From contig OZ020517.1 in the NCBI GenBank assembly GCA_963971425.1, positions 23,012,462 through 23,076,461 on the forward strand: a stretch of DNA of 64,000 nt, in the 5' to 3' direction. Source of the DNA: Bryoerythrophyllum caledonicum. Taxonomy: Eukaryota > Streptophyta > Bryopsida > Pottiales > Pottiaceae. The translations under genes and the position numbers were made by a program. The notes under the pieces were generated by a model. The model was given only the letters and a program-made list of their open reading frames with translations. It was not told the origin of the DNA and ran no database searches. This document shows positions 5,409-57,859 of this stretch, piece after piece (positions within the stretch are counted from its first letter, which is position 1; each line of letters opens with the position of its first letter).

Positions 5409-5443
5409 ATCTCTAAATTAAGAATATAGCCTATTGGCTATGC

Positions 5444-8965: not shown

Positions 8966-9209
8966 GCCCGAACACGGATTGAACCTAGTAAGCGGGTGTT
9001 AGGTGCTACCTATGCCACCAAGACCACACAACTATATATTATCCTTGTAGCTACTCTATATTAGAGGAGATATTGAAAATTGTTTTGATTCAATTTTTAT
9101 TATTTACTATTTAAAGCTAATATGTTTTAACATGCTCAAAACATTTCTAAATCACTAGTTGGCTTTCCATTTAGGAATTAATCAAATGAATGATTCTTGG
9201 ATTTTGTTA

Positions 9210-9945
9210 AAGAAGAAGAAGAAGAACTCCGGTTTCCATAGGAGGGCCGGCATGAATAAAGTGTCTATTCCTACCACCTCAAAGTCCATGTCGAGGGAAC
9301 ATGGGTAAGTGGTATGGAACTGCTTCCCTCTCTCAAGGATAGACACTATGTACCACGTAACAAGTAACCAAGAACAAAGAATTGATGACGCTAGGGGGCT
9401 CATGCAGTGAAGTTTTAGTAGGTTTTTAGGGGTGTCTAGCGTGTTGAGGATGGGTTGGTTGTTTTTGAGTTTCCTTTTGTGTACAAGTGTAGACATAGCA
9501 TGTTGGATTGCGTTGGATAGTGTTAATATTTGTAAAGGTGGTCTTGATTGACATCATGAGAATTTTGAATGTTTTTTCAAGGGTTGTCATTGAGGGGATA
9601 AAGGTGGTGGCTCTAGCACCCACGGTGATGACAATGAAGGGGTCTACGTTCCATCCAAGTGCTTGAATATCATTGAGTAGTGGTTGATGTTTATTTATTT
9701 TGTTTGCAATAGCTTCCAGTGAGACTTTATCTTTACAATATTTGAATTCAATAAATTGAATAGTGAGATTCGGGTCTATGTGGGTGGGTGGGGTGTATTT
9801 GTATGGTAGCCCTTTGATACATAATAGGTCGGATTTTAATCTTGCATTACAATGGTATCTCCAAGTACTGCATGTGCATGGTAATAACCATGAGGGGACC
9901 ATATTTTCTCGTTAGAAGAGTTGTTTACAAGGGTTTCCCATATAC
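9210..9945 (-). mobile_element. 5'-truncated LINE copy A (3' end only), short GAA/TTC tail
   Basis: Read on the minus strand, this segment carries the C-terminal end of a LINE ORF with a long open stretch (9426-9902), then a short 3' untranslated part, and ends in a GAA run on the plus strand (9210-9226), i.e. a TTC tail. It matches copy B around 12228-12966 closely: both share the ARATTFIPSM peptide and the same tail-proximal DNA. The homology to copy B fades near 9945, which I take as the truncated 5' end. No target-site duplication was found. Function: inactive retrotransposon fragment. Confidence 0.7.
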
Positions 9946-10895
9946 AGTCCGGTGCGGAATTTCCTATGCCCTAACACTTGCACCTCACCATGCCCAACAC
10001 ATTAGATCCCCTATTCACTCAAAGACACATATACTACCACCAACAACAACATCCCACCTAAAAATATGCCCCTGCCAATTCACCCCCCCAACCAACCGCA
10101 TCCACTCCTCCCTTTCCCCCCAACACACATCCTCAAAAATCCATCTACATATCCCATAAATCTCATTCTTGGCCATAAACACAAAAAACATATCGACTCA
10201 AACAAAATTATAAAAAATGATACCAAATATTTATGCCAATGGCAGCACAATAATAATACCTGTATCAAATGGTTACCCCAACGGAATGTCTATCCACGGC
10301 ATGGCCAAAACACCTCTACCCATAACTCCATTCAACTAACACAATATTATCAAAACACACAAAAATAATTCTGCTTAGAAATCATTCAAGCACACCATCC
10401 TCAAGAGCAATTTTGTGACTCAAGATCACTCACTCCACCCATAATCATTCCCCTCCTCAATATACACACCACCGAATACAACCCCGAAAAAGACATTCTC
10501 ACATCAAACAATACAATCAAAATTAATGAACACCCTGCACATATATACAAAGAAAATGGAAGGCATCTAATCACTATTTCCTTTAACAAACTACAATGGC
10601 TATGGAACCAATGCCAAAATAAATAACAAACTCCGACAAACATAGAGCCAACAATCCAACCATTTGAAACTGAAATAGTCTAGCTATATCAAAGATATAA
10701 ATATCGCATCCCAAAAATGACCCCCTTGAATTTGCACAATATACATTACCCACGCCCATTCTAGACTCACTAATCTCATCCTTCAACATCCAACACTCAT
10801 ACTTTTCATCCCCGTCACATGCTCCATCCAACTTACTAAGTTCTACTCACATTTCGAAAGAGACAAAAGTTTTGGTTACTAGGAAAGGCCTTTGA

Positions 10896-12966: not shown

Positions 12967-13887
12967 TTCTTCTTCTTCTTCTTCTTCTTCTTCTTCTTCT
13001 TCTTCTTCTTCTTCTTCTTCTTCTTCTTCTTCTTCTTCTTCTTCTTCTTCTTCTTCTTCTTCTTCTTCTTCTTCTTCTTCTTCTTCTTCTTCTTCTTCTT
13101 CTTCTTCTTCTTCTTCTTCTTCTTCTTCTTCTTCTTCTTCTTCTTCTTCTTCTTCTTCTTCTTCTTCTTCTTCTTCTTCTTCTTCTTCTTCTTCTTCTTC
13201 TTCTTCTTCTTCTTCTTCTTCTTCTTCTTCTTCTTCTTCTTCTTCTTCTTCTTCTTCTTCTTCTTCTTCTTCTTCTTCTTCTTCTTCTTCTTCTTCTTCT
13301 TCTTCTTCTTCTTCTTCTTCTTCTTCTTCTTCTTCTTCTTCTTCTTCTTCTTCTTCTTCTTCTTCTTCTTCTTCTTCTTCTTCTTCTTCTTCTTCTTCTT
13401 CTTCTTCTTCTTCTTCTTCTTCTTCTTCTTCTTCTTCTTCTTCTTCTTCTTCTTCTTCTTCTTCTTCTTCTTCTTCTTCTTCTTCTTCTTCTTCTTCTTC
13501 TTCTTCTTCTTCTTCTTCTTCTTCTTCTTCTTCTTCTTCTTCTTCTTCTTCTTCTTCTTCTTCTTCTTCTTCTTCTTCTTCTTCTTCTTCTTCTTCTTCT
13601 TCTTCTTCTTCTTCTTCTTCTTCTTCTTCTTCTTCTTCTTCTTCTTCTTCTTCTTCTTCTTCTTCTTCTTCTTCTTCTTCTTCTTCTTCTTCTTCTTCTT
13701 CTTCTTCTTCTTCTTCTTCTTCTTCTTCTTCTTCTTCTTCTTCTTCTTCTTCTTCTTCTTCTTCTTCTTCTTCTTCTTCTTCTTCTTCTTCTTCTTCTTC
13801 TTCTTCTTCTTCTTCTTCTTCTTCTTCTTCTTCTTCTTCTTCTTCTTCTTCTTCTTCTTCTTCTTCTTCTTCTTCTTCTTCTTCTTC
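12967..13887 (+). repeat. (TTC)307 uninterrupted triplet array, 921 bp
   Basis: From 12967 to 13887 the sequence is pure TTC on the plus strand, GAA on the minus strand, with no substitution or phase change in any printed line. It directly follows the 3' end of LINE copy B, whose relatives A and C end in short versions of the same triplet, so it most likely arose by expansion of the retrotransposon tail. It ends 55 bp before a TATA-like box upstream of ISY1. Long GAA/TTC tracts form triplex DNA and attract silencing in other organisms. The frames it opens (poly-Leu, poly-Glu, poly-Arg) are not genes. An assembly artefact in the length cannot be excluded. Confidence 0.97.
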
Positions 13888-13941
13888 TATTTGGCCTTCG
13901 CCCATCATAAACCGTAAACGCGGGTTCTTCTAGTAAATTAA

Positions 13942-16457: not shown

Positions 16458-16530
16458 GACCGTGTGGCCCAATGGATAAGGCGCTTGCCTACGGAGCAAG
16501 AGATTCTGGGTTCGATCCCCAGCATGGTCG
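16458..16530 (+). tRNA. tRNA-Arg (anticodon ACG)
   Basis: 73 nt fold into a full cloverleaf. The acceptor GACCGTG pairs with CATGGTC (one G-T pair) and the discriminator is G. The anticodon arm is CTTGC-CTACGGA-GCAAG, giving ACG (read as ICG). The T-loop B box GGTTCGATCCC and the D-arm A box TGGCCCAATGG are intact. No intron. No T run follows before the next tRNA, which starts 8 nt later. Confidence 0.95.
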
Positions 16531-16538
16531 GCATGTAC

Positions 16539-16620
16539 GTCAATTTGGCCGAGTGGTTAAGGCGGCAGACTCGAAATCTGCTGGGGTTTCCCCGCGCAGG
16601 TTCAAATCCTGCAGTTGACG
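16539..16620 (+). tRNA. tRNA-Ser (anticodon CGA)
   Basis: 82 nt, class II tRNA with a long variable arm (GGGGTTTCCCC region). The acceptor GTCAATT pairs with AGTTGAC and the discriminator is G. The anticodon arm GCAGA-CTCGAAA-TCTGC gives CGA. The T-arm GGTTCAAATCC is intact. It lies 8 nt after tRNA-Arg on the same strand, and the first downstream T5 run is at 16627, so the two may share one Pol III transcript. Confidence 0.95.
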
Positions 16621-16626
16621 ATTGTC

Positions 16627-28094: not shown

Positions 28095-28369
28095 TTATTT
28101 ACCCTGGTGGAGCGTTGCACCAAGCCTCAGCATAGGGTAGGACCATTTTTCTGGCCTTCTCACTTTCGGGGTTTTGAAGACCTTTTTTGGATTTTTTTTT
28201 GGCCAAATATAGGGCATGTAGCTTCAATATACCCTCGGAGGACCCCTATGATCAAATAGGGCCCTCCTCGGACCCTCCTCCAACATGAAAATAGGAGCTG
28301 GTCTTATCCGGACCCTCCCCACCCTCCCGAGCCTGACGCTTGGTGCAACGCTAGACCGGGGTTTTTAGT
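28095..28369. mobile_element. 275-bp MITE with inverted ends and 9-bp target duplication, in the BBE-like gene 3' end
   Basis: The ends are inverted copies: CCTGGTGGAGCGTTGCACCA on the left and, read on the other strand, CCCGGTCTAGCGTTGCACCA on the right; the similarity continues to AAGC-TCAG. GGGATCCCT flanks both sides (28086-28094 and 28370-28378). Nine base pairs is the MULE/Mutator duplication length, so this is a candidate Mu-type MITE. The duplication is itself palindromic, which lowers its weight. Its right end supplies the stop codon of the BBE-like gene. Internal text (CCCTCCTCCAACATGAAAAT) is shared with repeats near 33450 and 41490. Confidence 0.65.
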
Positions 28370-31300
28370 GGGATCCCTTATTGAGCGGTATGCTCTTGGG
28401 GAAATTGAAGACATTTTGCGGATCCCACTTCTTCTTCCCCTGGATGAGCGCACCGAGATTGGCCCCGTAGTACGCGCTGAGAGGCATATCACTATCGATG
28501 TAGTTCTGGTACGCGGCTCTCGTGGCATACGGCTTCACGGCATTGAAGAAGTTCCTGATGTACCTCGTCTGCCCCGCCGCATCACTCGCGTCACTCCAAT
28601 ACGCCACCATCTGAGCGGTGTGAAGATGCCCTCGATGTACAAACGCGGACGCAGTCGGTGCCACTTTGTTGATAGCGGACTGGGAGCCGTATAGATCGAA
28701 GGTGAAGAACGCGTTGTTGTTCCCGGCTCTCATGGCGTTGATCATGGCGTTGATCGCCTTGTCCGACATCCCCGGCGCGTTCATGAAGGTGGACTTGGTC
28801 TTGAATGCAAGGGTGGTGAATGGGACGTTGTCCAATGTGTTTGGATCGGTGTTGCTAGCGTAGCCTGCGCTCATTAGAGTCGACTGGATCCAGTCGACTT
28901 GCTCCACGGTAGTACTGGGGTTGGGTCCTGCAGCGGAGAGAAAGCCTTGGACTAGAGATGGGAGGGAGGATCTGGGGCCGAGGAAGGTCCCTTCTAGCCA
29001 GCTCACTCCGGCAGGGTCCATCCTATAAAGGGCGGAGATCTCAGCGGGGACGTTGACCCCCCAGATCTGGAACGCCTTGAAGTTCTGGAACTGGAGCGAC
29101 TTGGTGGTCCATGTGTAGGTGAAGCGCGTGACGGGGAACGAGACGTTGATCACGCGGAACGTGAATTGCGTGACGATCCCGTACGAGGTGGCGCCGGCGC
29201 CTCGAAGCGCGAAGTAGAGGTCCTTGTTCTGATTCGCGTTGCAGGTGACGACGGTGCCGTTGGCGGTGACGAGCTCGAGCTCCAGGGTGTTGTCGGACAG
29301 GAGGCCGAACTTGCGCGCGATGAAGCCCCAGCCGCCGCCGAGCGCGTGCCCCGCGACACCCACCGTCGGGCAGGCGCCCGCCGGGATCGTCACCTTGCCG
29401 GCGTTCCAGAGCGCCAAGTAGAGCGGGCCCAGCCGCCACCCCGCGCCCACTACGGCGGTTTTCGCCGCGCTGTTGTAGCTGAACTGCTTGAATCCCACCA
29501 TATCCACCACCAGCACCCCATCCCGACCTCCTGCAACAAACGGGCAATTGTAAAGTTAAACAGATGAGTTTTGACGCCCATTCTCATTTTCATTTGTCAT
29601 GAAATCAGCTCAAAATATCTTGAATCGGTTCACTGAAAAGGCAGCTACAGTTGATCGTACAACATGTCCTGTAGTGGTTAACACTACTTCTCAGTTTTGA
29701 GTTTCAAGACCACCATGCTCTTCCATACTCAATTGCAGAATTCTAGTTGAGGCCCCGTAAAGCACTTCTGTATATACAGTGGTCAGCAGAAGTGTTCGGA
29801 CAGTAATTACAATCTCAATTTAATAGTAACACTTGTCGAGTTTGGTAGGTAGGTGCTGATTTTTTCAGCTAATTATAACTAAAGAGCCACTTGTAAACTA
29901 GAAAGAGTACCATCATTCACATTGAGCCACTTGCATGGGCTGCAGTTCATGATGTGTCAATCATGGGTGTCCAATTCATTATGCACACAAGTTGTGCATC
30001 TGAAAAATCTTGAGAATCGACATGTATTTATGGAGACCTCTTGCATTTCAAGACACATTGTGATTGAATAAGATTGCTCTTGATTAGCTATGGCTCCTAG
30101 AAGGACTCTTGCTCAACGTAAGTTAGTTCTTCAGATGCATGAGAGAGGGAATTCGTACTCCGAAATTTCAGCGGTTCTAGGCATCTCTCGAAGCACTTGC
30201 CATGCTATTGTGCGGAGGTTTACAATGAGAGGTCATTTGAGAGATGCTCCTTCACAAGGGAGACCTCGAATTCTTGATGAACGTGGTGATCGTGAGGTTG
30301 TAAGGTTGTTGAATGCACCATCTAATGGTACAGCTGCAGCAGTGGGTAGAGAAATGCGATCTCAAGGATTGGATTTGAGTGATGATACAATTAGAAGATG
30401 TCTTCAGAGGCAAGGATTGAGAGCACGAGTGAAAACTAAGAAGCCATTCTTGTCAAAGAAACACAAAGCACGTCGATATGCATGGGCAAAGAAGTGTAGG
30501 CATGCAAGTTGGATGGACTGGAGTTATGTGGTTTTTTCAGATGAGTCAAAATTCAATTTGTTTGGCTCAGATGGGAGGCAGTATTGTTGGAGGAAGAGAG
30601 GAGAGCATCTTTTAGATCAGCATGTGCAACCTACTATCAAATTTGGAGGTGGAAACATTATGGTTTGGGGATGTATGACTTGGGAGGGAATTGGCAACCT
30701 TCGTCTTATAGAAGGAAACATGGATAAGTTTGTGTATCGTGAAATTTTGGAGATGGAGCTCATGAATACTATACACATGTATGATTTAGGAGAGGAGAAT
30801 GTTATTTTTCAGCACGACAACGATCCCAAACATACTTCTAAGTATGTTACAGATTGGTTGTTAGCACAGAAGTTTCAACTAATTTGGCATCCGGCTCAAT
30901 CTCCTGACTTGAATCCTATAGAACACCTTTGGAATGAAGTAGATCGTCGTATGAGAATGTCAAAGAAGAAACCCACTAACAAGAAGGATTTGTGGGAGAA
31001 ATTGCAAGAAATTTGGTATAGCATTGAGATTGATACCGTGAGGAAATTGATCATGTCTATGCCTGAGAGAGCTGCAGATGTTTATCAAGCAAAAGGTGGC
31101 TATACACGATGGTAGTCATTATGATTGTACATTCAAGTTTTTAGGTAGTCCTCATGATTCTACATTCAAGTTTTTAGCTTGATTTTGTAGCTCATGGCTT
31201 TGTTTCCAATGTAAATAGATAACCACTTCACTTTTTGCATAAAGAATTGGACACCCACATCATGTGTTTTATTTTTGATTGATTTCTTGATTGACATTTT

Positions 31301-32556
31301 TTATTATGAATGTTATGTTACATGTTTTTTGTAACTATGTGATTGTATGTTTAAATTTTTACAACTTGAATGTGAGTTACGTAAGAAAACTAGCTCATAT
31401 TGGAAGTGGAAGCGTCCTGTCCGAACACTTCTGCTGACCACTGTAAGAGTGAGCTGTGATAAACAAAAAAAAGGGGTATCTGATTGAAACTTTGGGTAGA
31501 AACTTAATCCCCACAACTTCACTAAACACTGAATATAGTGTAGAGGGATTATTGATGTAGATCATCCACACTAGTTTCCATCAAAGCATGTGCATGCCAA
31601 GTTCTGATTGGGTATTTGTTCTCAAGCAAGTGTGTGTCAGTCAACAATTGCATGTAAATTTTCAATTAGTGTAGGAAATTTCAAATAGTCTAGTCTACAC
31701 TATATTCACGGAACGGTGTAGTTCTAAGTAAGTTTCTAGAGGTCCACAGCACTCTTGCACACTTCCTTGAAGGATTCTAGTAGATGTTCCATATGATGAG
31801 AGGATTGAATGACTGAATGATGACAAGGTACTGTGATAAGTAGCGGCAGAGAGATGACCGATTGAGGGAGGGTGGAGGCGTACCGAGAGAGTAGGATTCA
31901 TACGAGTGGCCGCCGCAGCGGGGCACGATCCCCACGCCCACCTGCTTGGAGCACAAGATGGCATTCTGCACCTGCGCCACCGTGGTAGGGAACACGAACG
32001 CTGCTGGCGCGTAAGAGTTCCGCGTGTTGTACGCCCCGCGCGCGTTGTTGTACTCGGAGCTCCCCGGAAACGCCGTAAGCGCACCGCCCTGCGCCAAGCA
32101 CTGCTGCAGCGTGGTGGCCTGCGCCAGCTTGCGCCCCATACGAACCTGCGCACGGAAAATTCAGAACTGCTCATGCTTGCTTGCCCAAATTAATGACCTC
32201 CTCATCCCTCATTCCATCCAGAAAAATAAAAACTTATGCAGAACGTAAAAGTGTCAGCTTTAGAGTGTCAAAGCACAACCCCATTTGTACGAGGGACAGG
32301 TTGCGTCACAGTTTCAGGCCATGATTCACACGAAGAACTTCAAATTTAGCACAGACGGATAGTTCGTTAAAAATTTAAAAGGGATCATGTATCACAAGGG
32401 AAATATAGCCAATAGTACAAGGTGTGAAATCAATCATTTGATTGAAAGAGAGAGACTGCACACCTGCTGGTTGAGCGCAGCTGCTGCTGACTCTGAGGGT
32501 ACGAAGGCAAGTAACACCACAGTTGCCAACACTGAGACAAGTCTGAGTTTGCCCAT
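28365..32556 (-). CDS. Berberine-bridge-enzyme-like FAD-linked oxidase, 506 aa, secreted, three exons
   Basis: Exons complement(28365..29530, 31884..32145, 32464..32556), with GT-AG introns and agreeing phases. The N-terminus MGKLRLVSVLATVVLLAF plus PSESAAA is a signal peptide. The FAD-binding domain shows CGGHSYESYSLGGRDG, whose His is the usual 8-alpha FAD attachment site, and GACPTVGVAGHALGGGWG, whose Cys matches the second (6-S-cysteinyl) attachment, so bicovalent flavin is expected. The C-terminal BBE domain ends YYGANLGALIQGKKKWDPQN. Such enzymes oxidise alcohols, carbohydrates or alkaloids; the substrate cannot be read from the sequence. Intron 2 is 2353 bp because a Tc1 transposon sits in it; without it, about 684 bp. 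The last codons and stop (28365-28367) come from a MITE, which shortens the C-terminus by a few residues. Family call is secure. Confidence 0.92.
29777..29803 (+). repeat. Left outer terminal inverted repeat of the Tc1 element
   Basis: 27 bp, identical in reverse complement to 31417-31443. The host dinucleotide TA precedes it at 29775-29776. Confidence 0.95.
30090..31115 (+). CDS. Tc1 transposase, 341 aa, DD34E
   Basis: One intronless frame. The N-terminal part has a helix-turn-helix pair: TLAQRKLVLQMHERGNSYSE with SRSTCHAIVRRF, then a second DNA-binding segment ending in basic KTKKPFLSKKHKARR, a likely nuclear signal with binding residues. The catalytic domain shows VVFSDESKFNLFGSDG (first Asp), MVWGCMTWEGIG, FQHDNDPKHTSKYV (second Asp) and SPDLNPIEHLWNE (Glu); 34 residues separate the second Asp from the Glu, so DD34E. 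All Tc1 landmarks are present and length matches intact Tc1 enzymes (about 340 aa). It cuts at its terminal repeats and inserts at TA. Start codon: the Met before APRRTLAQRK, the usual Tc1 beginning. Probably active or only recently inactive. Confidence 0.96.
   Translation: MAPRRTLAQRKLVLQMHERGNSYSEISAVLGISRSTCHAIVRRFTMRGHLRDAPSQGRPRILDERGDREVVRLLNAPSNGTAAAVGREMRSQGLDLSDDTIRRCLQRQGLRARVKTKKPFLSKKHKARRYAWAKKCRHASWMDWSYVVFSDESKFNLFGSDGRQYCWRKRGEHLLDQHVQPTIKFGGGNIMVWGCMTWEGIGNLRLIEGNMDKFVYREILEMELMNTIHMYDLGEENVIFQHDNDPKHTSKYVTDWLLAQKFQLIWHPAQSPDLNPIEHLWNEVDRRMRMSKKKPTNKKDLWEKLQEIWYSIEIDTVRKLIMSMPERAADVYQAKGGYTRW
31417..31443 (-). repeat. Right outer terminal inverted repeat of the Tc1 element
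   Basis: Exact inverted copy of the left 27-bp end, followed by TA at 31444-31445. Confidence 0.95.
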
Positions 32557-35832: not shown

Positions 35833-36081
35833 TTATATTTTAGATTGCAATTTGCATCCCTCGGAACGTCGTGCGTTGATCCGCGAAACGTCGTCATTCG
35901 GTGCGGCAAGGATGGCACGACCGCTGAAGTACTCGCGCGCATATGCTTCGACGTTAGCAATTCTTCCATAGACGGCATTGATCAAGCCGTTCAAGGTGTG
36001 ATTGCCGACAATCATCGCCCGTGGACACCTCATCATGTCATCCTTCACCTTCTCCAGTCCTCCCCCAGCGCCAAGAGCCAC
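35833..36081 (-). pseudogene. PIF1-like helicase fragment
   Basis: The minus-strand frame contains LINAVYGRIANVEAYAREYF followed by SGRAILAAPNDDVSRIN, which corresponds to the linker and RAILxPxNxDVxxIN segment of PIF1-family helicases, including the helicase part of Helitrons. About 80 residues are open. The Walker motifs and the rest of the helicase are missing. It may have been captured by the surrounding TIR element. GC content is much higher than in its AT-rich surroundings. A stop follows after LQSKI. Confidence 0.6.
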
Positions 36082-36151
36082 TCTGGAAATGTAAGGTTGT
36101 CCATATCCACACGGCGTTCACCAACAACAGCGCGCATGTTCTGGCAAAGTC

Positions 36152-36189
36152 TTAGGTTTAGGGTTTAGGATTTTAGGGTTAGGGTTAGG
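36152..36189. repeat. Short interstitial telomere-type tract (TTTAGGG-like)
   Basis: About five diverged units of TTTAGGG/TTAGGG in a row (GGTTTAGGGTTTAGG ... TTAGGGTTAGGG). It lies upstream of the PIF1 fragment in that fragment's reading direction. Too short for a telomere relic on its own; it may be a telobox promoter remnant or a filler-repair scar. Confidence 0.75.
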
Positions 36190-36199
36190 ATTAAAAAGC

Positions 36200-37400
36200 G
36201 GCGGACAGACTGACTAAAGCCTATTATATGGGTAGATACAATTTAAACTACAATACATACACAAAATAGTTTCTACAATACACAATATTATATTACAATG
36301 CATACAATATGTACTACATTACTACATTTGTAGTACGTATACAATACATCGATGTAAATAAAATATGTAAAAAATACATAAATACAACATTTATACTAAA
36401 TGTGGTACAGATATTGTATACCATATGCTACTTATAGTAAGAATACTATATATTTCACATAAAAATACTATAAACTAAAATAATATATATATATACCATG
36501 TATTATACTTAATACATGCTATATATTATATGTACTATTAGTAGTACATATAATTAATGATAAAGTTACTATAAATATTATAAGTAATATTTATACTATA
36601 TGCAGTATATATGCTATAAATACTATATAGTGTATATATGCTATAAATAATATATGTAGTACATATTCTATAAATTCCATATGCAATATATACTAATAAT
36701 ACACATTGTTCATAAGCTATAAATCATATTTGATATATAAAGTATAGTAGTGGACCCCATGTTGGCCAATGATAGTCCTCAATAAATAAACATAATACCC
36801 GGATTTTCTATGTATATAAAGGAAATGTAGTCCGGATATTGCCACATGGCGCATTTTGGGATGCCAAGGTGTTGGTCCGATCATTGGCCTTGCTATTTAA
36901 TAATATAGAATAGATATTATATATAGATATTGTATTTATACACAATATATACTATATACAATATATTGTATAAGGCATATGTCATATATATAGTATATAC
37001 ACTCTATATATGTGTATAGTATATGTACTATATATCTTATATACTATAGACATATTTAGCATTCGATATATATTTCTATGATAATAGATATACAACATAT
37101 GGTATATATTCAATTTATACAACACATACAATGTATCCAATGTATATGTTATTTATAGTCTAATGTATATTTTATATATTATATACTATGTATTACACAT
37201 ACTTATAATTGAACGTATTATAGTATATGTGGTAATTTTGATAATATGGTAAGGTTTACATTATTATATTAAGTATATTTTACTATTTTTAGTATATATT
37301 GTATTCATACCATAATAATATATTACATATCCTTGAATCAATTCTTTACACTAAATGTCAACAAGTCAATTTTTTTGTATTGCAATGTTTAGAGGAGTTG
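36200..37400. other. Extremely AT-rich internal region of the TIR element
   Basis: Long stretches built from TATA, ATAC and GTAT words with many overlapping short palindromes. No reading frame of note. A small non-AT island at 36750-36880 interrupts it. Confidence 0.6.
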
Positions 37401-37525
37401 ACAATTAGTGTTGTAGTTGGCATTTAGTGTACGATTCTGTCACTACACTAATTGCGTAGTCTACATTTAGTGTAGTGGTTTGTGTTTAGTGTATACTATG
37501 CACACTAAACATCATTTTTAGTGTA

Positions 37526-37755
37526 CCTACATTAATTGGGGGTTATAATAAAAGTGAGATCATCAAATCATGGATATAGATTCCTAGGTTTATTTGAGGG
37601 AATACTTTGTGATACTAATAATAGAATTATCTTCTTTGTGGCCTATGCGTGACCTTTAGTTCCTATATAAGCCAAAAAAAGAGGCCTTTTCTTGAACCAA
37701 CTTTATAAAGTAGCTCAAGTTGGATAAGCAAGTGGAATTTCTTATACTACATGTC
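37526..37755 (+). mobile_element. LTR-like fragment, right part
   Basis: Continues the 35330-35640 fragment after the TIR insertion. It aligns with 48421-48640 through GGTTATAATAAAAGTGAGA, CAAATCATGGATATAGATTC, TGACCTTTAGTTCC and ACCAACTTTATAAAGTAGCT. A TATA-like CTATATAAG near 37660 could be the LTR promoter. No internal retroelement sequence follows, consistent with a solo LTR. Confidence 0.6.
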
Positions 37756-39289
37756 TTTATGAAATGCAAGGACAATGACAATTGAATTCCTGCAGCAACC
37801 GATTGCCTACCAACACCTCGTCATTGACTCTCCTTCCAACAGATTCTCATTGTTGTTCATGCAGCCTTTGTTGCACTTGCGTCTCAATGATTATGCTATC
37901 TAAGTCAACAATTTGGAGGTCTATGCCATGTAAAATACTTTGGTTTCTACATGCTCCTTGGCTACCACTGAAGTATTGTGTAACCATAGATAACAACGAA
38001 ATACAAATGTTACGTCGCTGTTTGCCGACATACTTGTATTTTGTTTGAGATTGTGTTAATGTGTACTTGGCCATGAACTTTTGTCGAAGCTGTCTTCAAT
38101 GGACATTGCACACACTTCCCTTTTATATTTTCAATGTAAAATCTCCTTTGGATTGTTTTACCTTGTTCTTGACCTCTCTAACTCGGTTGCTTGCCGACTC
38201 TTGCATTTGGATCTCTCCTACCTCATCTTTGTGGTACAATACGTATATATTAATACTGAAGATGATGACTCACGACAATTCCACTTCCTCCTTATCCTCA
38301 TCGTCAGCAGCCCCCTAAGAAAAGAAGAATGTTTACATGGTGAAATTTATAGTGTAAAGATATTTAGGTACCAAGAGATAACCCAGGGTTAGAATGAATA
38401 ATTATAGTCTACAAAAATCTTTAGGGTCTTGAGGAATCTTTACAAATCCATTGACGATATCGATGAATTGTTTAGGTTTTGAAGGAAATATATGTGGTCA
38501 TGCAACAATTTTTATATTTCTATCTTTGTTTGTTGGAGGGTAGCCAATAAATTCTATCCATTTCATTTGTATATCCTTTGAAAATTTGCCCATACATGCA
38601 TCTTTTCTACAATATAGGAGATGAATTTCAAGCCTACGTTTTTTTTTTGGTCCATGATTGATAGCTTTGTAGCAAAACCACCATGGGACATTAAACCATA
38701 TTATATATATGTGTGCTTCATTTTAGTGTAGCTCAAAAGAACATGTCTTATTTTTTGTAATCTAAAAAGACACCCATGTTACTTAAAGCTATATTCCTAC
38801 CGTAGAATGGAGAATAGTTGTGCATAATCCAGTCTAATATCATGTGGTGGGCTCACCGGCGACCACAATTCCACTTGGGTATATTACAATCCAGTCTAAC
38901 TGATGTCAACTCAATCCTTTTCCAGATCATATCGTTAAAACACAATATGAAGTTTGTATGTGATATTTTTCAATACAATAACTATATACATGCAACATGG
39001 GAAACAAAATATAATAGTATTATATGGTAATTTTTCATATTGTAATCATATGGATTTTAAAAACAATATAGAATACATACAATCTATTATTATGAGAACA
39101 ATATTAATATGGTTGAATTCTATATTTATAATTTCTAAAAGTTTGCAAGGAAATACAAGAAGATAAGACCTATATGGAAATATAATTATTATTCTCAACA
39201 AACCTATAGAAAAAGACTTTTGTCATGTTAATAAGACATTGTGTGGATTATTAATGAAAAGTTTAGACAAACTAACTTTAATAATAACT
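37756..39289. other. AT-rich intergenic stretch
   Basis: Nothing recognised. The short frames at 37782, 38061, 38818 and 38954 lack any family signal. Confidence 0.5.
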
Positions 39290-40240
39290 AGAACTTTTTT
39301 TTTAGTTTCAGCTCCAAATTCCCAAGAGTCTCCTTGGGGCACTTTTGAAGGTTTGAGCAAGTACTTATGCTGCCAATTTATAAGATTCTTCTATAACTTG
39401 TTTCAGTAGATGGACTTTACTAAAAACTTTGTGTGAATAATTTATTTTTCTAAATCCGACATTTAATGGAAAAGTTATGCCATCTTATAGAAAAATACCC
39501 CAAGTACGGTCACGTTGGGCAACTCCAAAACCTTTTGCTAGGACACTTTTTGAAAGTGAGATTTTCAATTCTAACAAGTGATAGTATTTCATTTCATATT
39601 GTTAAAAAATAATCTTTTCTACATAGAAAATTAGCAATTTAACCCAAGTCAAACATTTTCACACATTGTCAGGCAAGGTTGCAAAACAATTCTTCTTTTC
39701 CACATAAAACTTACAGATCTTTATATTTAAATTTTTTATGTTTTCCACAACAATATGTGGTATAAACCTTCTTATTTTACCATTTGGAATATTATTCTAA
39801 AACATTTTTAGTTCACAAAAATATTTAATGTGAATTGGCACTTTTTGAACCTCCACTCCTTAAACAATTGTTTTGAATATGTTACACCCGTTCTCCACCC
39901 TCCAAAATTGGGGTACAAGGTACTAATATCATGCTTAACATGATGGTAATGAATTTAGAGTGCAAAAATTTGACACCTACGAAAGTCAAAGTTGGTTGAT
40001 TCACTCAACGCAGTGAAGAAAATGTACCATTTTTTCTACTTTGAACACAATAATATGTCTATATATGAGGTCAAAGTTTATTATATTTTGTGAGAATATT
40101 ACATATTAAATCTCAATTGAGATCCCACAGTTAACAACTGAATTAAAAGTTTTTGTTTCCATCCTTACTCATTGGACTAAACCAAGCAGTTTTGAAGTGT
40201 TTTTGGTGTGAAAATGGTCTAAGGTTAATTGAAAAAAAAT
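39290..40240 (+). repeat. Interspersed repeat family R, copy 2
   Basis: Shares TTTTGCTAGGACAC, ACCCAAGTCAAACATTTTCA, CACATTGTC and CACAACAATATGTGGT with copy 1, and the later blocks (TGTTACACCC, ATCATGCTTAACATGATGG, GATTCACTCAACGCA) with the inverted copies at 42.3-43.9 kb. Non-coding. Confidence 0.7.
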
Positions 40241-41362
40241 TGGAACTGTTTCATGCAAAAAAAAAAGAAAAAAAAAGAAATAAAAAGCATGAAGCAACAT
40301 AACCACAATAGAACTTTTAAGATAACAATGGCATATATAGTGAAGAATGAACTTACCTAATAAAATCGTAATTCACAAATAGTCATGACTCACTATCACA
40401 AACAGTTTGTGCAATGGTGCTCATGTCATTATGCTTGGTAGGTCTTGGGTTCCATCTGCTCCATTGAAGGAGAGCTTGTTGGTTGAGAGTGGCAGAGCGT
40501 GGGGAGCAAGTATTGCATTGGACTGTGGTCTCCAATACTTTTGCCGATTAGAGCTAAAAAAAAGTTATTTTTTATTACCTGTTAAAGTGCCCTTTTGTTA
40601 GAGTGTTCTCATGTAAATAGATTATAACTGTTGTATGATATTTGTGTTGACTTTTGGCAATATAAGATCTATATGAAACCAATAGAACTTTCTTAAGATT
40701 ATTGTAAACGATAGCATTTTACATGTGAACAATACTAGGCCCAAAGGCAATTGGATCTATATGATTTTCATATGAGGTCAATATCAACACCATAGCAAGG
40801 CTTTTTCATGATGTGAAGGTGTTGACTCTTATACAAGTACTCAATGAAATGCTACATGACACCAGTCCCAATAGATGCCAAAAATTGATGTTAGGCCATA
40901 AACATTTCAGTCCATCAATGACCATGCAATGAAGTATTTTTTTTAATAATACTATTATTTTTACATGTTTTTTAAAAATGATATAAAGAGTGTAATAATC
41001 TGTTCTATGATTTGAAGCCCAAATTTGGAAAGAATCCAAACATGCCAGGTGAATATTACATGATCATGAGAAGAAAGAATGAACCCAAACCACCGAAGTT
41101 TGAGAAGTAGCGCGTACTATACCAAGCAACGCACAAAAAGCAGAACAAACATGAGAAACATGAGGAACATGAGAAACATGGTTGTACTATGTAGACCTAC
41201 CTGGCTCCAAAAGCACATGCAAATTGGACCCATTCTGACCCACAAGCATTGACCTTGTGAGGCAAGAATCTTTTCTTTGTAACAATTTTACAGTACGAGG
41301 GTACGAGGGTACGATACGAGGGTACCGGACCTTGGAAGTACCAAGACTGCTTTATTTCATGT

Positions 41363-41553
41363 AGACTGATGTCGTGGGAGGGTGGGCTAGGGTAGACCTT
41401 TTTCTTTGGAATTTTTTAAGCCAAATTTGTAGCCTTTGGTCCTAAATTACATTTGTAAACCCCACCGTGGTCTACACAGGCCCCCCTCCAACATAAACAT
41501 ACGGCCCGGGTTTTGACCACACCCCCCTTCCCGTACCATCCGTCTACATGGTT
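41363..41553. mobile_element. MITE-like repeat, family member 3
   Basis: The left end CATGTAGACTGATGTCGTGG and right end (other strand) CATGTAGACGGATGGTACGG are imperfect inverted repeats that continue into G-rich text. The interior matches the repeat at 33262-33526. It follows a short GTACGAGG tandem (41295-41325). No clear target duplication. Confidence 0.55.
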
Positions 41554-42299
41554 TAATCCCTAAAGGACATAGCCTATGATGGTGGCGATTTCTATTCCAC
41601 CGTGTGCTCTATTTCTTCATTAAATATAGGTGGAATTTATTTTATTTTATTCTTCACAGATGAGATCATATGTCTTGCTTATGTCACAAAAATTGCAGAT
41701 TTTTTTGGTGAAAGCTTGTAATTATTGTGATCTTCCAAAGAAAAAGTGAAGAAAATTTATATCAAATACAATGTACACTTAAAAATTCTAAAAATTCCAC
41801 CAGAGGTGTACATTAGAGTGCCAAAACTTGGGGTGTAGATGAAACTTCCGTGTTCAGCTAAGAGTAATAAATCGGTCAACCATGGTTATAGGTACAAAGT
41901 TCAAACTGCAATAACTTATTCAATTTTATGTATTTTTCAAAAATTTTAATTGGAATGGAAAAAAGACTTTATAAGCTTCGTTTCATCAGTTGGACTCACA
42001 TTCAAAAAGCATTATCTGAATGGCTCAAATTCAGATTTAGAGCGAAAGCTAGAAGTTTTTAAAATACTTCACATTTAGATCCATTTCACAAAGATTTCTT
42101 CTCTAGATAAAACATGAATACCTCAACAAGACAAGTTTCATCATCATCTACTACTTACACATTCAATAAAATCTCCAACAAATAATTGGATGAAAACAAT
42201 TCATTCACATTAATTATCATCCTCAAATTGTCATCCGAGAAGCCAATTTTTGGCTCCCCTTACGTTTGAGGGTTAAAAAAAATCCAAATTACTGTCGCC

Positions 42300-43935
42300 G
42301 TGGTCGCTTTTGACACCTTTTTTCCAAATGCATTATTATTTTGGGACCCACCGGATTGGCACTATTCAATAATTTTTTAAACCCTAAATTTCCTTGACAA
42401 TTTCACACCAATAAGGCTTCAAAACTATTAGTTCTAGTGCAATGAGTAAGGAAGGAAAAACAATGTATTTCTAGTTTTAACTGTAGGATCTCATTTAACA
42501 CTTAATAATTAACGTACTCTCTAAATCTCAGTTACTTCAACCGCACAGATTGAAAGACTATAGTGTTTGAAGTAGAAAAATGGTTCATTTTCATCCGTGC
42601 GTTGAGTGGATTAGCAGACTTTGACTTCATTTGGTGTCAAAATTTTGCACTACACAAGGTCTAAATTTTATATCATCATGTTGATCATGATATTAACTTC
42701 TTGTACACCAATTTTTAGAGGTAGCGAAGGGGTGTAACATATTCAAAAAAATTGTGCAAAGAGTGGAGGTTCAAAAAGTGCCAATACACGTTCTAATTTT
42801 TTGGGAACAAATTATGTTTTAGAATGATCATCCAAACGGTCAATAAGAAAGTTTACACACGTCTTGTAATAGAAAAAAGTGGAAAATATGTTCTCAAATT
42901 TTGATGGAAAATAAGTTTTTTTTAATTCAATGTGTGAAAATCTTTGACTTGGGATAAAATCCATTTTTTCATTAACCCCTAAGGTACCATGACAATTTTA
43001 CACCAGAAACACTTCAAAATTGTTGTATTCTAGTGCAATGAACAAAGAAAGAAACAAAAAATTCAATTTCTAGTTCTGAATGTAGGATCTCAATTAAGAC
43101 TTATTAAGTAATATATTTACAAAATTTCATAAACTTTGACAACACGGATTGAAAGATTATAGTGTTTCAAGTCAAGCAAATGGTTCATATTCTTCCCTGC
43201 ATTTAGTGGATCAACAGACTTTGACTTCACTTGGTGTCAAATTTGTGCACTACACAAGGTCTAAATCCACTACCATCTTGTTAAGCATGATGTTAGTTCC
43301 TTATACACCAGTTTTTAGAGGTAGAGGACCGGTATAGCATATTCAAAACAACTCTGCAAGGAGTGGAGGTTCAAAATTTGCCAATTCACACTTTAATTCT
43401 TGTGAACTTAATATGTTTTAGATTGATAACCCGAATGGTCGATAAGAAGGTTTACACCACATATTGTTGTGGAAAAAATAAGAAGTGAAAAATATAAAGA
43501 TATCTAGGTTTTATGTGGAAAAGAAGAAGTTTTTTTGGTACCTTGCCCGACAATGAGTGACAATGTGTGAAAATGTTTGACTTGGGTTGGTATGCTATTT
43601 TTCACTAAAGACAAGAACTTTTTTTTGACAATAGAAAGGGAAATAATATTACTTGCAAGTATTGAAAATCTCACATTTAACAGAGTGTCCTAGCAAAAGT
43701 TTTTGGAGGTGCCCGAGGTGCCCGAGGTGCCCACTCTCCCCATTTGAAATTCAAAACCCTATAACTTTTTCATCGAATGTCCAATTTAGGAAAAAATTGT
43801 TTTTCCACTAAGGTCTTGGTAATGCCTTTCTGTAGTTAAAATTTCAAAGAGGAATGTTGGAAATTGACACCATAGGAACCTGACCAAATTCTCAAAAAGC
43901 CCATTTTTGACACTTGGTCCATTAGGGGTTAAAGA
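42300..43935 (-). repeat. Interspersed repeat family R, two inverted tandem copies
   Basis: Copy 3 (about 42300-42985) and copy 4 (about 42985-43935) both carry, inverted, the blocks of copies 1 and 2: TAGTGTTT...CAAATGGTTCAT, GACTTTGACTTCA.TTGGTGTC, TTGCACTACACAAGGTCTAAA and GTGGAGGTTCAAAA. Copy 4 continues to the terminal GGAGGTGCCCGAGGTGCCC and CATTTTTGACACTTGGTCC. A further partial copy follows to about 44110. Together with copies 1 and 2 they form large inverted repeats spaced by kilobases. Confidence 0.7.
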
Positions 43936-44109
43936 CAAGAAATATTTTTTGACAATATGAAAGGAAATAATATTATTTGAGAGTATTGAAAATCTCAATC
44001 TTACTAGAGTGTCAATGCGGGCATTTTGGCCCTTGCCCAACATGCCCGCATTTGACAATTTTTTCTTTAAGATGGCATAACTATTTTTCCATAAGTTAGA
44101 TGAAGATAA

Positions 44110-47100
44110 AAAATTATACTCCCACGTACCTCTTGTCTTCTTGCATCTCTGTAATAAATTTCAAGAATTGCAAATGTAAATTGCAACCATGGGATTGTGC
44201 CCGAGATTTGCAAAAGCCCACCTCGGAACTTTTTTCCAGTTAGAGGTTGACATCGGCATGTGCTAGATTGGAATTTCTGGCGGTTTAGCAAATGTGACAC
44301 TTGATCTTGGGATACCGTTACCGGTATTCTTGATTTGGCAGTGAAAAGTCGTAGCCAAAATTACTCAAGGTATTGATGTAAACTTTCGGCTTGATTTTAT
44401 AACGCACAAGGTTTACACATTTGGTGATAGTCAGCCGTGCTCTTGACCGTGGATTTTGATGATCATCAGCCATGCTCTAGCTTTTTCTTTTCTTTTATGT
44501 TTCTAAATATACTTTTCAATTATTCTCTATTTCTAATTATAATTCCGTTCGTTTTTTTATTACAGTTTTAAAAAAATTATACCTTTTTTTCCCTTAATTA
44601 TTTCAATTTCAACAACTCCACCTGTAATTTTCACAGACCTAGACAGCTGAGATTGAATTTATTTATATGGACTACTCTCTTAAAATTTCCAAAATTTTGG
44701 AAAACTCTCTAATTTGAATTAATAATGTACAAAAGCGACCACGGCATAGGATAGTCAGTTTGAGACACAACAAGGCCTTTCCATCAGATTGTGAGAATGG
44801 AAAAAGGGGGAGAAGTAGATAAGATTGTAGGGCATGTGAAATGATATTCTAGACAACAATGCATATGCAAGTTTTTAATGTTGTACGTACACACCGCACC
44901 TGAATTGGACTACAAAAGTGTACGTTAAGAAATGTCAAAGTGAAAAACATAGCAAGATCCTTCCTTTCATTTTCTGAAGGAAGAATTTTGCTAAAAGCTA
45001 TTGTAGAGTTACTTCACTTTAATGATCCTGAGTTCAAAGATAGATACAAAAGTCTACTTATAGCTTTCGGGTTGGATATTAGATGAAAAGTCCCTCAGAT
45101 TTGAGACCACAAACTTGCTACAGGTTTATCTCTACCCTTTAACACTCAGTCAATAGTAGCATAGGCTCCATGATTTTTAGGAACATTTTCTCTCTAAAAT
45201 TAGAGTTTTAAAGTATCAAACCATTGTGAAAATGAACACCATTAAATCTTGAGGTTGTATCAACATAACATTCTAGAACTAGCTATAGGTCTCACTTCTA
45301 TTTACAAATCACTAACTCGAAAGAGTATTCCCAAATAAACTTGGAATCAAATTGGAAGAGGTCAAGTGGTTATTTAAAACAAGAAATAGATGTGTCTTAA
45401 GAAGGTCAACGTGCATGGCGTGTTAGGGGAGTTTCACACTTGGACCAAAGACCAAACCCTGTTGAGGACTGTAAACACTAAAATTTCCAGCTAGGATCTT
45501 TTTTCAACTTGACGGTGTAAAAGGGGCAGATTTCCGAATTGTTTTGGAAATAGCTTGTGAATGTGAATGATGAATCCTTTGAGATTTAAAAAAGAGATTC
45601 TAATATATAAGTAGTTAATGGTTAGCATCTTTTAGAAGCTAATTGGAGAAGACATGACGGCTGTGCCTTTTGAGATCTGGATGCAAAGAGTTGTCAACTA
45701 GACTTTGAATTGATAAATGAATCAAGAAGAAGAAGCAAGGCACTTCACAATATTAGAAATCAAAAAATCTTAAGTGTGCAAGTTGAAGTAGAAAGCTTGA
45801 GTGTGAGATATCTTGAAGAGAATAGAACCATTGCAAACTCTAATTGATGTTCAATTCTAATTGATAAATTGTACTTCAAGTAATAAAAACAATGATTATG
45901 TCAATTTCAAGTATTCCATTTGGAGGAGTTGAACTGAGAATATCACAATACCAATTGTAGTTTTTTAAATGGATGACCTCACACCAATGAAAGTGAATTG
46001 AAGTAAAATAGAAGTAATTGTGAGTTGAATTGACCAAGTCGGTCATGGTCATTGCAGTGCGTCATGCATGCATCCTGCATCCATGCCATGGCTACTTGTT
46101 GATTTGACTTATTTGGTGTTAGAGAGAAATATTGGTTAAAAGGATTTACTGTCTATTAGAAATTGGATCTAAAGACTTATTGAGTAATGGATTAAATAGT
46201 GGAGGCTAATTTAGTCAATCAGAGGATTTGGTTGAACATATAGCACTTGACACTAATATAATAAATTGTGCACAGTGAATTAACTTGTTAAAATTTTTAA
46301 AAAATTGTATTTATTGAGTGCAAGCATTTGAGTGGCATAAATTAGTAATTCTTGTTGAGTAAAAAAACTATGGATCTATAAGAAGGGTCATAGTGAAGAG
46401 TGTGACATTACTTCAATTATAAAATACTTGAGTTAATAGATTCCATAGATTAGACTTACTACCTAATCTACTCAAGGGTCTAGTAAAAGAGACTTGGCAA
46501 GATGATGTAAATCTTAGACTAGATATTGCTTGATAATAAGAATTATGATTGAATGATTTCTTTATGAAATAGAGATAGATATTCTTCAAGGATTGATCAC
46601 CTGTAATAATTAAATATTTAACACTATGGAAAAATAAGGAAATTAGGATAATACTCAGAAACTGTTATTGTCATTGTAGTAATTTAGTTAATTATTGTGA
46701 ACCCAAAATTCTACTCTTCCAAAATAACCCAAGTTACACTCTTAACTCCATTTTTGCTCTCGGGGATGACCTTTTGTCTGTTGTTAAGTAATTGGACTCT
46801 AACTGGATAGTCAAAGCAATCTGTCTCGTTAATACTCAAGGATATTCATCATGTTTTAAGGAAATGGGTCTCTCTTAGCATCACTCTTAAAAGTGAAGCA
46901 CCATTAACTTCCAGGATTCATTATATCAGTGAACCGACATTATTCCTATTAAGATTATGCTTTATGCACCCACTCCTAGACCTATGCCACGTTGGGCTGA
47001 TGGAAGATTCCATCAAGTTTCAATGCATGGATTCTTTAATTACGTTCCGTTAATCAATCACAATATTACCTCATGCATCCGCTCCTCTTTTCATGTCCGT

Positions 47101-47940
47101 CCAACCGGTGCACGTGATAGAGCTCTTATTCTCAGAGTTAGTTTCATAATCCATACACACAAGTAATTTTAAGATGTGATAATGTACCTGTAAAGCTCTA
47201 ACATGAATCTGTCACGGCTATGGCTAACCCTTTAATGCAAGTGGTGTCCCACACCTATGCTTGCGTTTCTTAAGTTCCAACACTGAGACTTTAGAACTAC
47301 TGACTTCTGCTCAAGTGCTTACTCACTGTAGACCCTGTCTACTTAAGTACATTGCACTTAGTCTTAGGTTTTTCAATTCTCACCTTCCTATTTAAGGACT
47401 TAAGTCAGTACTTATGCATATTACTCACTGATGCATTAAGTCACAAACTTTACATTAACTCCAATAAGTCTCACATACTTATGGTTAATGCTTAAAACAC
47501 ACATACAAGGTCATACACCCGACCTTAATGATTAGGATCCCTTCCTAACCTAATTATAAAGACCTATTAATACACATACACATGACTTAAGTCACAACTA
47601 GAAGACTTAAAGACATATAAATAATAATACATATATTAATAAGTAAACTCTTAAACATTAGGAGTCACCGACTAGCTTGGTCTTTAAGCTAGGACTCACT
47701 CCAAAGCTCCTTGTAGAAGTGGCAACAAATGCCAATTTCTCAAGGTCTTTATACTACTGAAAATCCAAGAGGTACACCTCTTGAAAAGGATTTTCCGTCA
47801 AGATCAACCGCTCGTTGATTCCTTCACATCCTCACACCCTTTCACTTAAAGGTGCAATCCAACCAAAGGGTGTGCCTTTTGACCTTTTAATACTACTCTT
47901 TAAGTTTCTGCTATAAACAGGTTCTCTTTAAGAATTTAAC
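44110..47940. other. AT-rich intergenic stretch without recognised content
   Basis: No gene, RNA or clear repeat recognised. The 69-codon frame at 46957 has no family signal. Confidence 0.45.
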
Positions 47941-48054
47941 TACTTAAGTCTAAAACTAAGTACTAAATATCTAGTTATCAAAATATCCACAACCCTATTT
48001 ACACTTAAATTTATGAAAAAGTCCAGAGTAACGGTTTCGGCTCTACAATTACAC

Positions 48055-48640
48055 ATTGTAAGTCCATGATCAATATTAATAATTAAGTGTGAATGTTGTG
48101 AAAAGAAGTTAATAAGTAATTTTCAACATAACTTGAGTTAGAAAAATACGTTGGTGACTTGGAATTATTTTGGTAAAGATTAGCGGAAGTTTGCTTGTGA
48201 TAGGTAGAACTTTTTTACCATAACTTATGCATCATTGCACAACATAAATAGATAGAACTTGATTTAATATAAGTAATCTAAGATTAATTAATTAATTGCA
48301 TCTATTTCATAGCTACTATCTATTTGACCCTAATGACTGCCAATTTGACTAGGCTATTACCGCTTGGAATTGATGCACCCTTGTTATTGTCTAATTGACT
48401 TCCCACTACCTCCATAACATGAGGATTATAATAAGAGTGAGAATAGTCAAATCATAAATGTAGATTCTTGGATTTATTTGAAAGAATACTTTTTGATATT
48501 AATAATATAATTATATTCTTTGTGAAATATATGTGACCTTTAGTTACTAAAATACGCTAAACAAAAAAACCTTTCCCCAAACCAACTTTATAGAGTAGCT
48601 TGGTTTAGATAAAACAATTCTAATTTTTTACACTACATTT
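48055..48640 (+). mobile_element. Putative 5' LTR (3' portion) of an LTR retrotransposon
   Basis: Homologous to the split fragment at 35330-35640 plus 37526-37755 and directly followed by a primer-binding-site-like TGGCACCACTGCGAAGGA (48642-48659), whose TGG matches the tRNA CCA end. The LTR start was not located. No 3' LTR was identified in the window. Confidence 0.5.
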
Positions 48641-48641
48641 T

Positions 48642-51600
48642 TGGCACCACTGCGAAGGATTAGGTTTAAGTTAGCGGTAACTAATGATGTAGGCGTCATA
48701 AATAATTTAGATAGTTCATATTCATTGTTATTGATTGTCTATTTTCTAATATTCTTGTTTGAGAATTTGGATACATATCTTCTTTGTAAGAATTTAAAAC
48801 ACTCTGAGGGATAGATGTTTATTTTACAAAATTCAATATAAATTGTGGATGGAGAAAGATTTACCAAACTATGTGCCTAAAGACAAACAATTACTAAGTA
48901 TTGAAACTCAAATAATACCAATAAATCCAAATTGAACAGTTTGTACTTTTTGTAATCCCATAAGACATGTTAGTCGGCCATGACATTCTCGTAGAAGTAA
49001 ACAAGGATAATTTATGTGACTTCTTTGGAGGTCTACATTTATTTGTTGCTTTAAATAGAATATATAAAAACAACATATTATACCCAAAGCTAGGAAAAGA
49101 CTTTCAAAGTAGGTTTGATTAACTACCTCTTGATATAAAAAAATACTAAATAAAATTTGAAATAAAGGAAAGGATTCAATGAGATAGAGTCCAAAATGAA
49201 ACCTTACAATCCAAATTTCAATTACTTTTTCTATTTGCTCAACATGGTGAACTAAAATATCAAACACAACCGGTTATTTCAAAAGGTTGTGGAGTATGGA
49301 ATGGTTTTAGATTTGATAAAAAAATATTTCCATCCATAAGTATGGTAAACATAATTTCCAATGAAAAAAATATTGACCAATTTTCTTTAATCCACATATT
49401 ATTCCCTTGGAAGATGATTTTGACTCATTATTTATTTAATTGATGGAGTTTTCAAACAAAAGCCTTCAAGATTTAAGAACTCATTTAAAACCACTTCTTA
49501 TGATCTATAGAGACATAAAGAATAATGAGTCCAAGTTATTTATCCTTGTGGGGAAAGAAAAAAATAGGATTGCTAATCGGATATGAAGGAAAAAAACTGC
49601 AATAATAGAGTTAATACTAAGAGGATATTTATATCCAAACGAACAAAATATAGAATATTTAAATCCAAACCATAAGCTTGATGACTTTACTCTGACTCGT
49701 TGGTGGCATTATCGCAATATCCACAATGAATCAATGGGACAGTCCTGATCTTGAGGACTATGAGGATTTAAGTATTCCTGGAATTTATAAAATAACAAAG
49801 TAGATGTGTCGTAAAATCTTTGTTTATTAGGATATAGCCCCAAATGAGGTAGAATTACTTACCAAAGTTGAGAGTCAAATAGATTAATTAATAAGAATGA
49901 CAAGTACGCGGTTAGGTGAAAATGAAATGAGTGCATTATTAACCAATTGTCAATATCCTAGAAATACTAAAGAAGATTAGAAGAAATGGACTTGTTTGCA
50001 GAGAATTTTTTTATATGTTTATCTTGATAGAACTTGTTAAATATTGTGTTTAAAGTTTAAAAAAATACATACAATTAATTTATGAAAAGCATTAGGAATA
50101 ATGATAGGAGAAATCTACCTGGGGGAATTTCATGAGGATGATCAACCTATTTACCTTAGGCATCACCCTATAGATTGTATCCTCCGGCTTTTTATTCAAA
50201 CATTAAGTGTATGTTATCAATTAAATCAATCAGAGGTAAATTTTTGCAAAAATAAGAATCCAAAATAAATTGGTTAATGTTATTACTTCGATATGTTTAT
50301 GGTGATAAATGTATTGGTGAGTTGACAAAAATTTGGGGATACCCAAGAGATATTAGATCTTGGATTAGTGTATAACTATCTAGTGAAACATGTGATTTGC
50401 TATTGATTATGGGAATTGGTATTAATTATGAATAGTGGAATAGATAGGATGATGGTCTGGGGTTAAAAAATTAAATTAAATTAAAAATAATAGGGTTTTG
50501 GCACTTCTAGATGTCAAGAAAGGATAAGGACCCTTGAGAGATGCAAACATTTATTAGGGATGAAAGGCAAAGACGTAGAATTGAGAGAAGAGAAAAATCA
50601 ATATTGGTAGTATTAACATCTAACTTAATATTTGATTTAACTCCGTCAAGTCCACTTGATAATAAGATTACCAAATTTTCTTATGAACTTCCCATATCAA
50701 AGGAATATGTAGAAGATTATGTTACTTTATCAAACATTTGCTCAAAACACACAACTTTTGGCCATTAAAGGACCAAAAGATGATGCTTTAATGGAAAATA
50801 TCACTAAATTAGAAAAATAATTCAGCAAATTGTTTGTTCATGTAAATGGAAGAAAGGAAAAGAGACCTAAACCTACAAATGTACCGTCTAATGTTTGGTG
50901 TAATAATTGTCAAGGACATGGACATCTAGCTAATAATTGTCTAGATGGGAAACTTGTTATAATTTTGCCCCTAATTGGAATGGACCACCTTCTAATCCCA
51001 ATGCACAAAGTTATGGACTTCCTAAAAAAGTAAAATTTATAGTTTGTTATAATTGCCAAGGATTAGGACATATGACCAGAGATTGTCGCAAAGAGAGAAA
51101 ACAAGTAGGATATATACCTCTATGTAGCAGGTGTAATGCATCAGGGCATACTATTAATGAATTCTTTGTACCTAACCAAATTAAGCAAGTTCAATTTCAT
51201 GAGTCAAATAATTCTTCAAATGTTAATCAAGTAACACAAGAATTTGATATATCACCTAAAAGTGTCTTTGTTACAAGAGAAACAAACAAAACCAAATCAA
51301 CATTGATTGAAAGTGATCAATTCAGTAGTTCTGATAGTGGCTATAAAATTGCTAGAGCAAGGAAGGATAAACTACCGGAAAAGAAACAATCTCTTCCGCC
51401 AAAAGTAGTTTCCCAACCTTTAAGCCAAGTACCAATTATACTTCATGATCTCCCTACAACCATTGAAAATCCTTCATTATCTAGCACACCCATCATTCAT
51501 AACAAAGAATTTAGTTAAAACTCATCAATACCTCTAGATATCCAAAAGGAATCAACAATTGTACAACTTGATTGAAGTACTTCCACGTTACCTTCTTTTA

Positions 51601-54630: not shown

Positions 54631-54724
54631 CCTCGTACGTCCTACCTCGTACGTCCTACCTCGCATGTCTTACCTCGTACGTCCTACCTCGTACGTCCTA
54701 CCTCGTACGTCCTACCTCGCACGG
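54631..54724 (+). repeat. 14-bp minisatellite, six full copies
   Basis: CCTCGTACGTCCTA is repeated at 54631, 54645, 54659 (CCTCGCATGTCTTA), 54673, 54687 and 54701, with a partial unit to 54724. Confidence 0.92.
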
Positions 54725-57812: not shown

Positions 57813-57859
57813 TCGGTCTTCTGCTCACTCGTCCCCTGGTTTGGAGTTTGCTCACCTTG

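Follow-up and report, generated by a model that had tools for sequence, protein, structure and literature searches.

Background

The closest described systems to the element reported here come from the moss Physcomitrella patens, in which Liu and Yang described in 2014 two DD34E Tc1 families, namely PpTc1 and PpTc2 (PMC4054914). PpTc1 is 1,584 bp long with 85 copies and PpTc2 is 1,709 bp long with 22 copies, both having 33-bp repeats and a 338-aa transposase, and fragments were reported in nine angiosperm databases too (PMC4054914). The accessions named there are ABEU01007491 for PpTc1 and ABEU01006878 for PpTc2 (PMC4054914). In 2020 both families were reported to be expressed and one PpTc1 insertion to be polymorphic; moreover, they were described as closer to fungal than to plant elements, and a horizontal transfer from fungi was suggested (PMC7466625). 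Another Tc1-mariner element of P. patens, Mariner2_PPa, was found in 2016 to resemble one in the fungus Pleurotus (PMC4905642). As for flowering plants, their mariner-like elements, known as PlantMar, bear the DD39D signature (PMC7325037).

Herein we analysed a window of 64,000 nucleotides of the moss Bryoerythrophyllum caledonicum (contig OZ020517.1, positions 23,012,462 to 23,076,461 of the forward strand), and all coordinates below refer to this window. Of the later reports on P. patens, that of 2020 is the work of Vendrell-Mir and colleagues and that of 2016 the work of Castanera and colleagues. Our results make it highly probable that the window holds an autonomous Tc1 (DD34E) transposon of the PpTc1 and PpTc2 kind, probably of a separate family, which was inserted, recently on an evolutionary scale, in antisense orientation at a TA in the second intron of a moss gene.

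The element and its host intron

The element was delimited by its ends, its TA flanks and its open reading frame, and the following features were located:

29777..31443 (+), whole Tc1-like element, 1,667 bp
29775..29776, left flanking TA, read from the sequence as a target-site duplication
31444..31445, right flanking TA, read from the sequence as a target-site duplication
29777..29803 (+), 27-bp terminal inverted repeat of the left end, starting with CAGT, with 100% complementarity to its counterpart on the right
31417..31443 (-), 27-bp terminal inverted repeat of the right end, its final letters being ACTG
31111..31177 (+), 33-bp tandem duplication, 2.0 copies with 91% match, spanning the transposase stop codon and beyond

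Between the stretches 29775-29803 and 31417-31445, which include the flanking TA, the complementarity is 100% along all 29 nt, and 27 bp of this belong to the element. The identical 27-bp terminal repeats and the TA on both flanks, as claimed by the first-pass annotation, are thus borne out, and they are the TA target-site duplication and the CAGT-type terminal inverted repeats by which the Tc1 family is recognized. When a 26-nt pattern of the ends was scanned with up to 3 mismatches allowed, there were two matches within the window, both exact and both being the element's own ends, and the mean over 100 shuffles was 0.00 matches.

The same annotation had placed the element inside an intron of a plant gene, and this holds as well, the gene being a moss gene for a berberine-bridge-enzyme-like (BBE-like) protein on the opposite strand:

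32464..32556 (-), host exon 1, with the start codon at 32556
31884..32145 (-), host exon 2
28365..29530 (-), host exon 3, berberine-bridge-enzyme-like FAD oxidoreductase
29531..31883 (-), host intron 2, 2,353 bp, containing the whole element

The exons are intact, and splicing them at GT/AG sites gives a protein of 506 aa. In an alignment of 502 columns this protein has 77% identity to one of Ceratodon purpureus, its identity to the Physcomitrium PpBBE-like 1 is 71%, and the Pfam domains FAD_binding_4 and BBE are found in the gene. In the search with exon 3, the best named matches are mosses first, with lycophytes and liverworts after them, and therefore the window is moss DNA as judged by this one gene. 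As a separate observation on the host protein, the stretch encoded at 31900-31935 (-) contains RCGGHS, for which RGGGHS is found in both the Ceratodon and the Physcomitrium protein; the stretch is presumably near the flavin-attachment histidine.

Intron 2 is about 684 bp long after subtraction of the element and one TA. Since the element is antisense relative to the host gene and confined to the intron, we predict that it leaves the host protein unchanged, and the moss would remove this copy by splicing it out together with intron 2.

Inner repeats

In the IR/DR subgroup of Tc1 elements, which is typified by Sleeping Beauty, each end bears two similar repeats in direct orientation, and in Sleeping Beauty, a reconstructed fish Tc1 element, these are direct repeats of one motif. 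The present element also bears a second pair of repeats inside the terminal ones:

29964..29985 (+), left inner repeat, 22 nt, 188 nt from the end, 95% complementary to 31236-31257
31236..31257 (-), right inner repeat, 22 nt, 187 nt from the end

The best match of left and right in the same register scores 20 for this pair, whereas none of 1000 dinucleotide shuffles gives more than 13, and the arms between the outer and the inner repeats have an identity of 26%, which is at chance level. In contrast with the ends of Sleeping Beauty, however, the inner and the outer repeats differ from each other. When their likeness was scored in both orientations and on both arms, the observed score was reached by 0.25-0.93 of the shuffles, and in a second test, again covering both orientations and both arms, by 0.32-1.00 of them; the word GGACA, common to both arms in inverted orientation, is short and within chance. 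Since the inner repeats are therefore no copy of the outer ones in either orientation, the strict IR/DR layout is rejected for this element. In fact, of the IR/DR layout proposed by the first reading of the sequence, the inner inverted pair proved to be real at the proposed distance from the ends, and the direct-repeat half had to be dropped. By analogy with Sleeping Beauty-like elements, the inner pair may be a second binding site of the transposase. For comparison, the zebrafish Tc1 element ZB has terminal inverted repeats of 201 bp (PMC7913693), whereas in the element studied here only the outer 27 bp and the inner 22 bp are conserved.

The transposase

The coding part of the element consists of the following features:

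30090..31115 (+), transposase open reading frame, 341 aa, with N-terminal helix-turn-helix domains and a DDE_3 catalytic domain
30540..30542 (+), codon of the catalytic D151
30816..30818 (+), codon of the catalytic D243
30921..30923 (+), codon of the catalytic E278, separated from D243 by 34 residues

The frame at 30090-31115 is without an internal stop and has all the DD34E residues at D151, D243 and E278, in agreement with the earlier reading of this frame as a complete 341-aa transposase. A DDE triad whose second D and E stand 34 residues apart is a mark of Tc1 membership. Among the 120 relatives listed, the same spacing is present by motif in 106, the others being 13 that are unmatched by the motif and 1 with another spacing. 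PlantMar elements have the superfamily and the TA targets in common with the element, but their triad is DD39D instead of DD34E, and with its triad spacing of 34 an identity as a plant DD39D mariner is rejected.

Two Pfam families are above cut-off in the transposase, namely HTH_Tnp_Tc3_2 (6.9e-15) and DDE_3 (5.4e-15), and the nearest solved sequence is the catalytic domain of Sleeping Beauty (residues 116-340, E 9.5e-53). Inside the DNA-binding half, a GRPR is found at residues 57-60, a motif which has been described for Tc1 transposases, for example in ZB (PMC7913693). The likeness to ZB extends to the 341-aa transposase of DD34E type and to the element length of about 1.6 kb (PMC7913693).

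A structure was also predicted from 45 aligned sequences, which are 44 chosen matches and the window protein, and the model has a mean pLDDT of 88.0 and a pTM of 0.66. The fold search with this model gave Sleeping Beauty 5cr4 first (E 7.9e-19), whose catalytic domain aligns with the transposase with 42% identity in the fold alignment, as well as full-length Mos1 complexes. The rmsd to the first fold matches is about 8-10, including the full-length Mos1 complexes (about 8), and such a high value is expected with differing domain placement; therefore the comparison supports only the domain folds and not the domain arrangement. The N-terminal helix-turn-helix domains and the DDE RNase-H-like fold of the Tc1 family are thus found by Pfam, the model and the fold search. 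Its domains, its sequence and its predicted fold alike mark the protein as a Tc1 transposase of the ordinary type.

The build of the element is consistent with the cut-and-paste transposition usual in Tc1. If the transposase works as others of the Tc1 family do, its helix-turn-helix part would bind the element ends, and perhaps the inner pair as well, and the DDE domain would cut both ends; the excised element would then join a new TA, which would thereby be duplicated.

Relatives of the transposase

The protein search with the transposase gave 6572 matches, and the relatives were taken from the best 120 of them. Among these 120, the five closest full-length relatives are unnamed archive proteins with 99, 78, 77, 72 and 71% identity, and the cluster of the 99%-identical protein has 96 member sequences. 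Such a number suggests many close copies or samples of the transposase, and the members may be repeated samplings instead of genomic copies. The organism names among the matches listed are Rhizophagus irregularis (twice, with 43-44% identity), Rhizopus arrhizus and the catfish Hemibagrus, and no plant is named.

A tree of 112 rows was built. Its rows are the window protein, P0103 (423 aa), residues 1-345 of P0120 and those 109 of the 120 listed matches whose length is 300-400 aa, with 9 shorter matches left out. In this tree the window protein forms a clade with P0001-P0005 at a support of 100/100, and a ten-row clade, which adds P0006-P0009, has a support of 100/96, all the named rows falling outside of it. 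P0006-P0009 are unnamed environmental proteins with 49-54% identity to the transposase. The two Rhizophagus irregularis proteins, P0072 and P0089, are also DD34E Tc1 transposases, at 44% identity, but they belong to a fungal host and to other clades of the tree. The search and the tree, which had been suggested together with the first reading, thus bring out a distinct lineage in the form of the 100/100 clade; however, as the nearest relatives among the listed matches are unnamed, they name neither hosts nor a donor.

Further searches were made with other queries and collections. With a Rhizopus Tc1 transposase as the protein query, no moss is named among the best 120 of 6791 matches, and a Physcomitrium transposase is named neither among these nor among the best 120 of 6572 matches of the transposase search. 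The exact scan for the end pattern over prokaryote genome contigs gave 0 matches. The protein scan of viral contigs gave 7 pattern matches, none of which is a relative, and the alignment scans, with 41 pattern matches in genome contigs and 120 in viral contigs, likewise gave no relative.

With its 1,667 bp, its 27-bp repeats and its 341-aa transposase, the element departs from the published sizes of PpTc1 and PpTc2, which are 1,584 or 1,709 bp, 33-bp repeats and a 338-aa frame. As it is unlike both families in size and its closest relatives are unnamed, the element probably represents a moss Tc1 family of its own, set apart from PpTc1 and PpTc2 by the published sizes only. A description of its own family was not found in the open-access literature, and this particular family is likely undescribed so far. 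The broader claim of a truly unreported kind in plants is rejected, since the DD34E families PpTc1 and PpTc2 have been known in moss since 2014 (PMC4054914).

Age and origin

The identical ends, the unbroken transposase frame and the 99% cluster together indicate a recent insertion of an element that is working or was lately working, which sustains the recency proposed in the first-pass annotation. We infer that the element may be active at present.

A young copy may belong to a lineage of another age, and one account, to which we would give a slightly less than even chance, is that of an old Tc1 lineage, vertically inherited in mosses with occasional bursts. Multi-copy Tc1 families of moss are in fact already known (PMC4054914), and the six-row clade with its several members at 71-78%, along with the degenerate fragments P0012 and P0030, is consistent with such a long residence. 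However, moss hosts for P0001-P0005, P0012 and P0030 are an assumption, because these proteins carry no host name.

Less probably, though still worth serious consideration, the family of this element may have entered the mosses horizontally, for example from a soil or symbiotic fungus, at a time that is recent relative to moss evolution. The 100/100 clade of the window element and P0001-P0005 adjoins P0006-P0009, and the listed named rows are of fungi and catfish with no plant among them; moreover, fungal affinity and transfer have been suggested for PpTc1 and PpTc2 (PMC7466625) and for Mariner2_PPa (PMC4905642). On the other side, no named donor is near the element among the best 120 of 6572 matches, the Rhizophagus rows being in other clades, and the 71-78% diversity within the six-row clade could equally be the outcome of a long residence in mosses. 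The third-position GC is 0.37 in the transposase versus 0.79 in the host exon, a contrast that fits foreign or mobile sequence, but a low third-position GC is common in transposons and is no proof of origin. We hold unlikely the most far-reaching version, that of a third moss DD34E Tc1 lineage, distinct from PpTc1 and PpTc2, which came horizontally from a soil eukaryote, is still mobile and has an unusual end architecture, with unrelated outer and inner transposase-binding sites at each end that make up two nested inverted pairs and not direct repeats.

An assembly chimera or a contamination, by which the element would not truly be in the moss intron, is extremely improbable and is rejected, given the clean TA junctions within a real GT-AG intron and the complete protein that its exons yield on splicing, just as a real insertion would give.

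Taken again as a recently inserted autonomous Tc1 transposon, the element probably brings one more family to the short list of Tc1 elements known from mosses, in the form of an intact copy that may have a second pair of transposase-binding sites. The known distribution of Tc1 is not overturned, as moss has been included in it since 2014. If the element is still active, it could be put to use in moss as a natural tool for insertions and could offer an example by which the transfer of transposons into bryophytes might be dated.

Other features of the window

Several further features were observed along the window. At 12967-13888 the triplet TTC forms an array of 307 perfect copies (100% match), which gives rise to spurious long reading frames, and at 16458-16621 there are adjacent genes for tRNA-Arg (ACG) and tRNA-Ser (CGA) with a gap of 7 nt. 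Consecutive frames at 5444-8560 (-) resemble a transposase of Mutator type that has a zinc finger at its end; Pfam, run on two of these frames, gave no family above cut-off. The frame at 50937-51518 has a CCHC zinc knuckle (PF00098) and is probably a retrotransposon gag remnant. The GC content also shifts strongly along the window, being about 0.29-0.36 at 36000-52000 as against about 0.48-0.56 at 1-10000 and 0.47-0.53 at 54000-60000.
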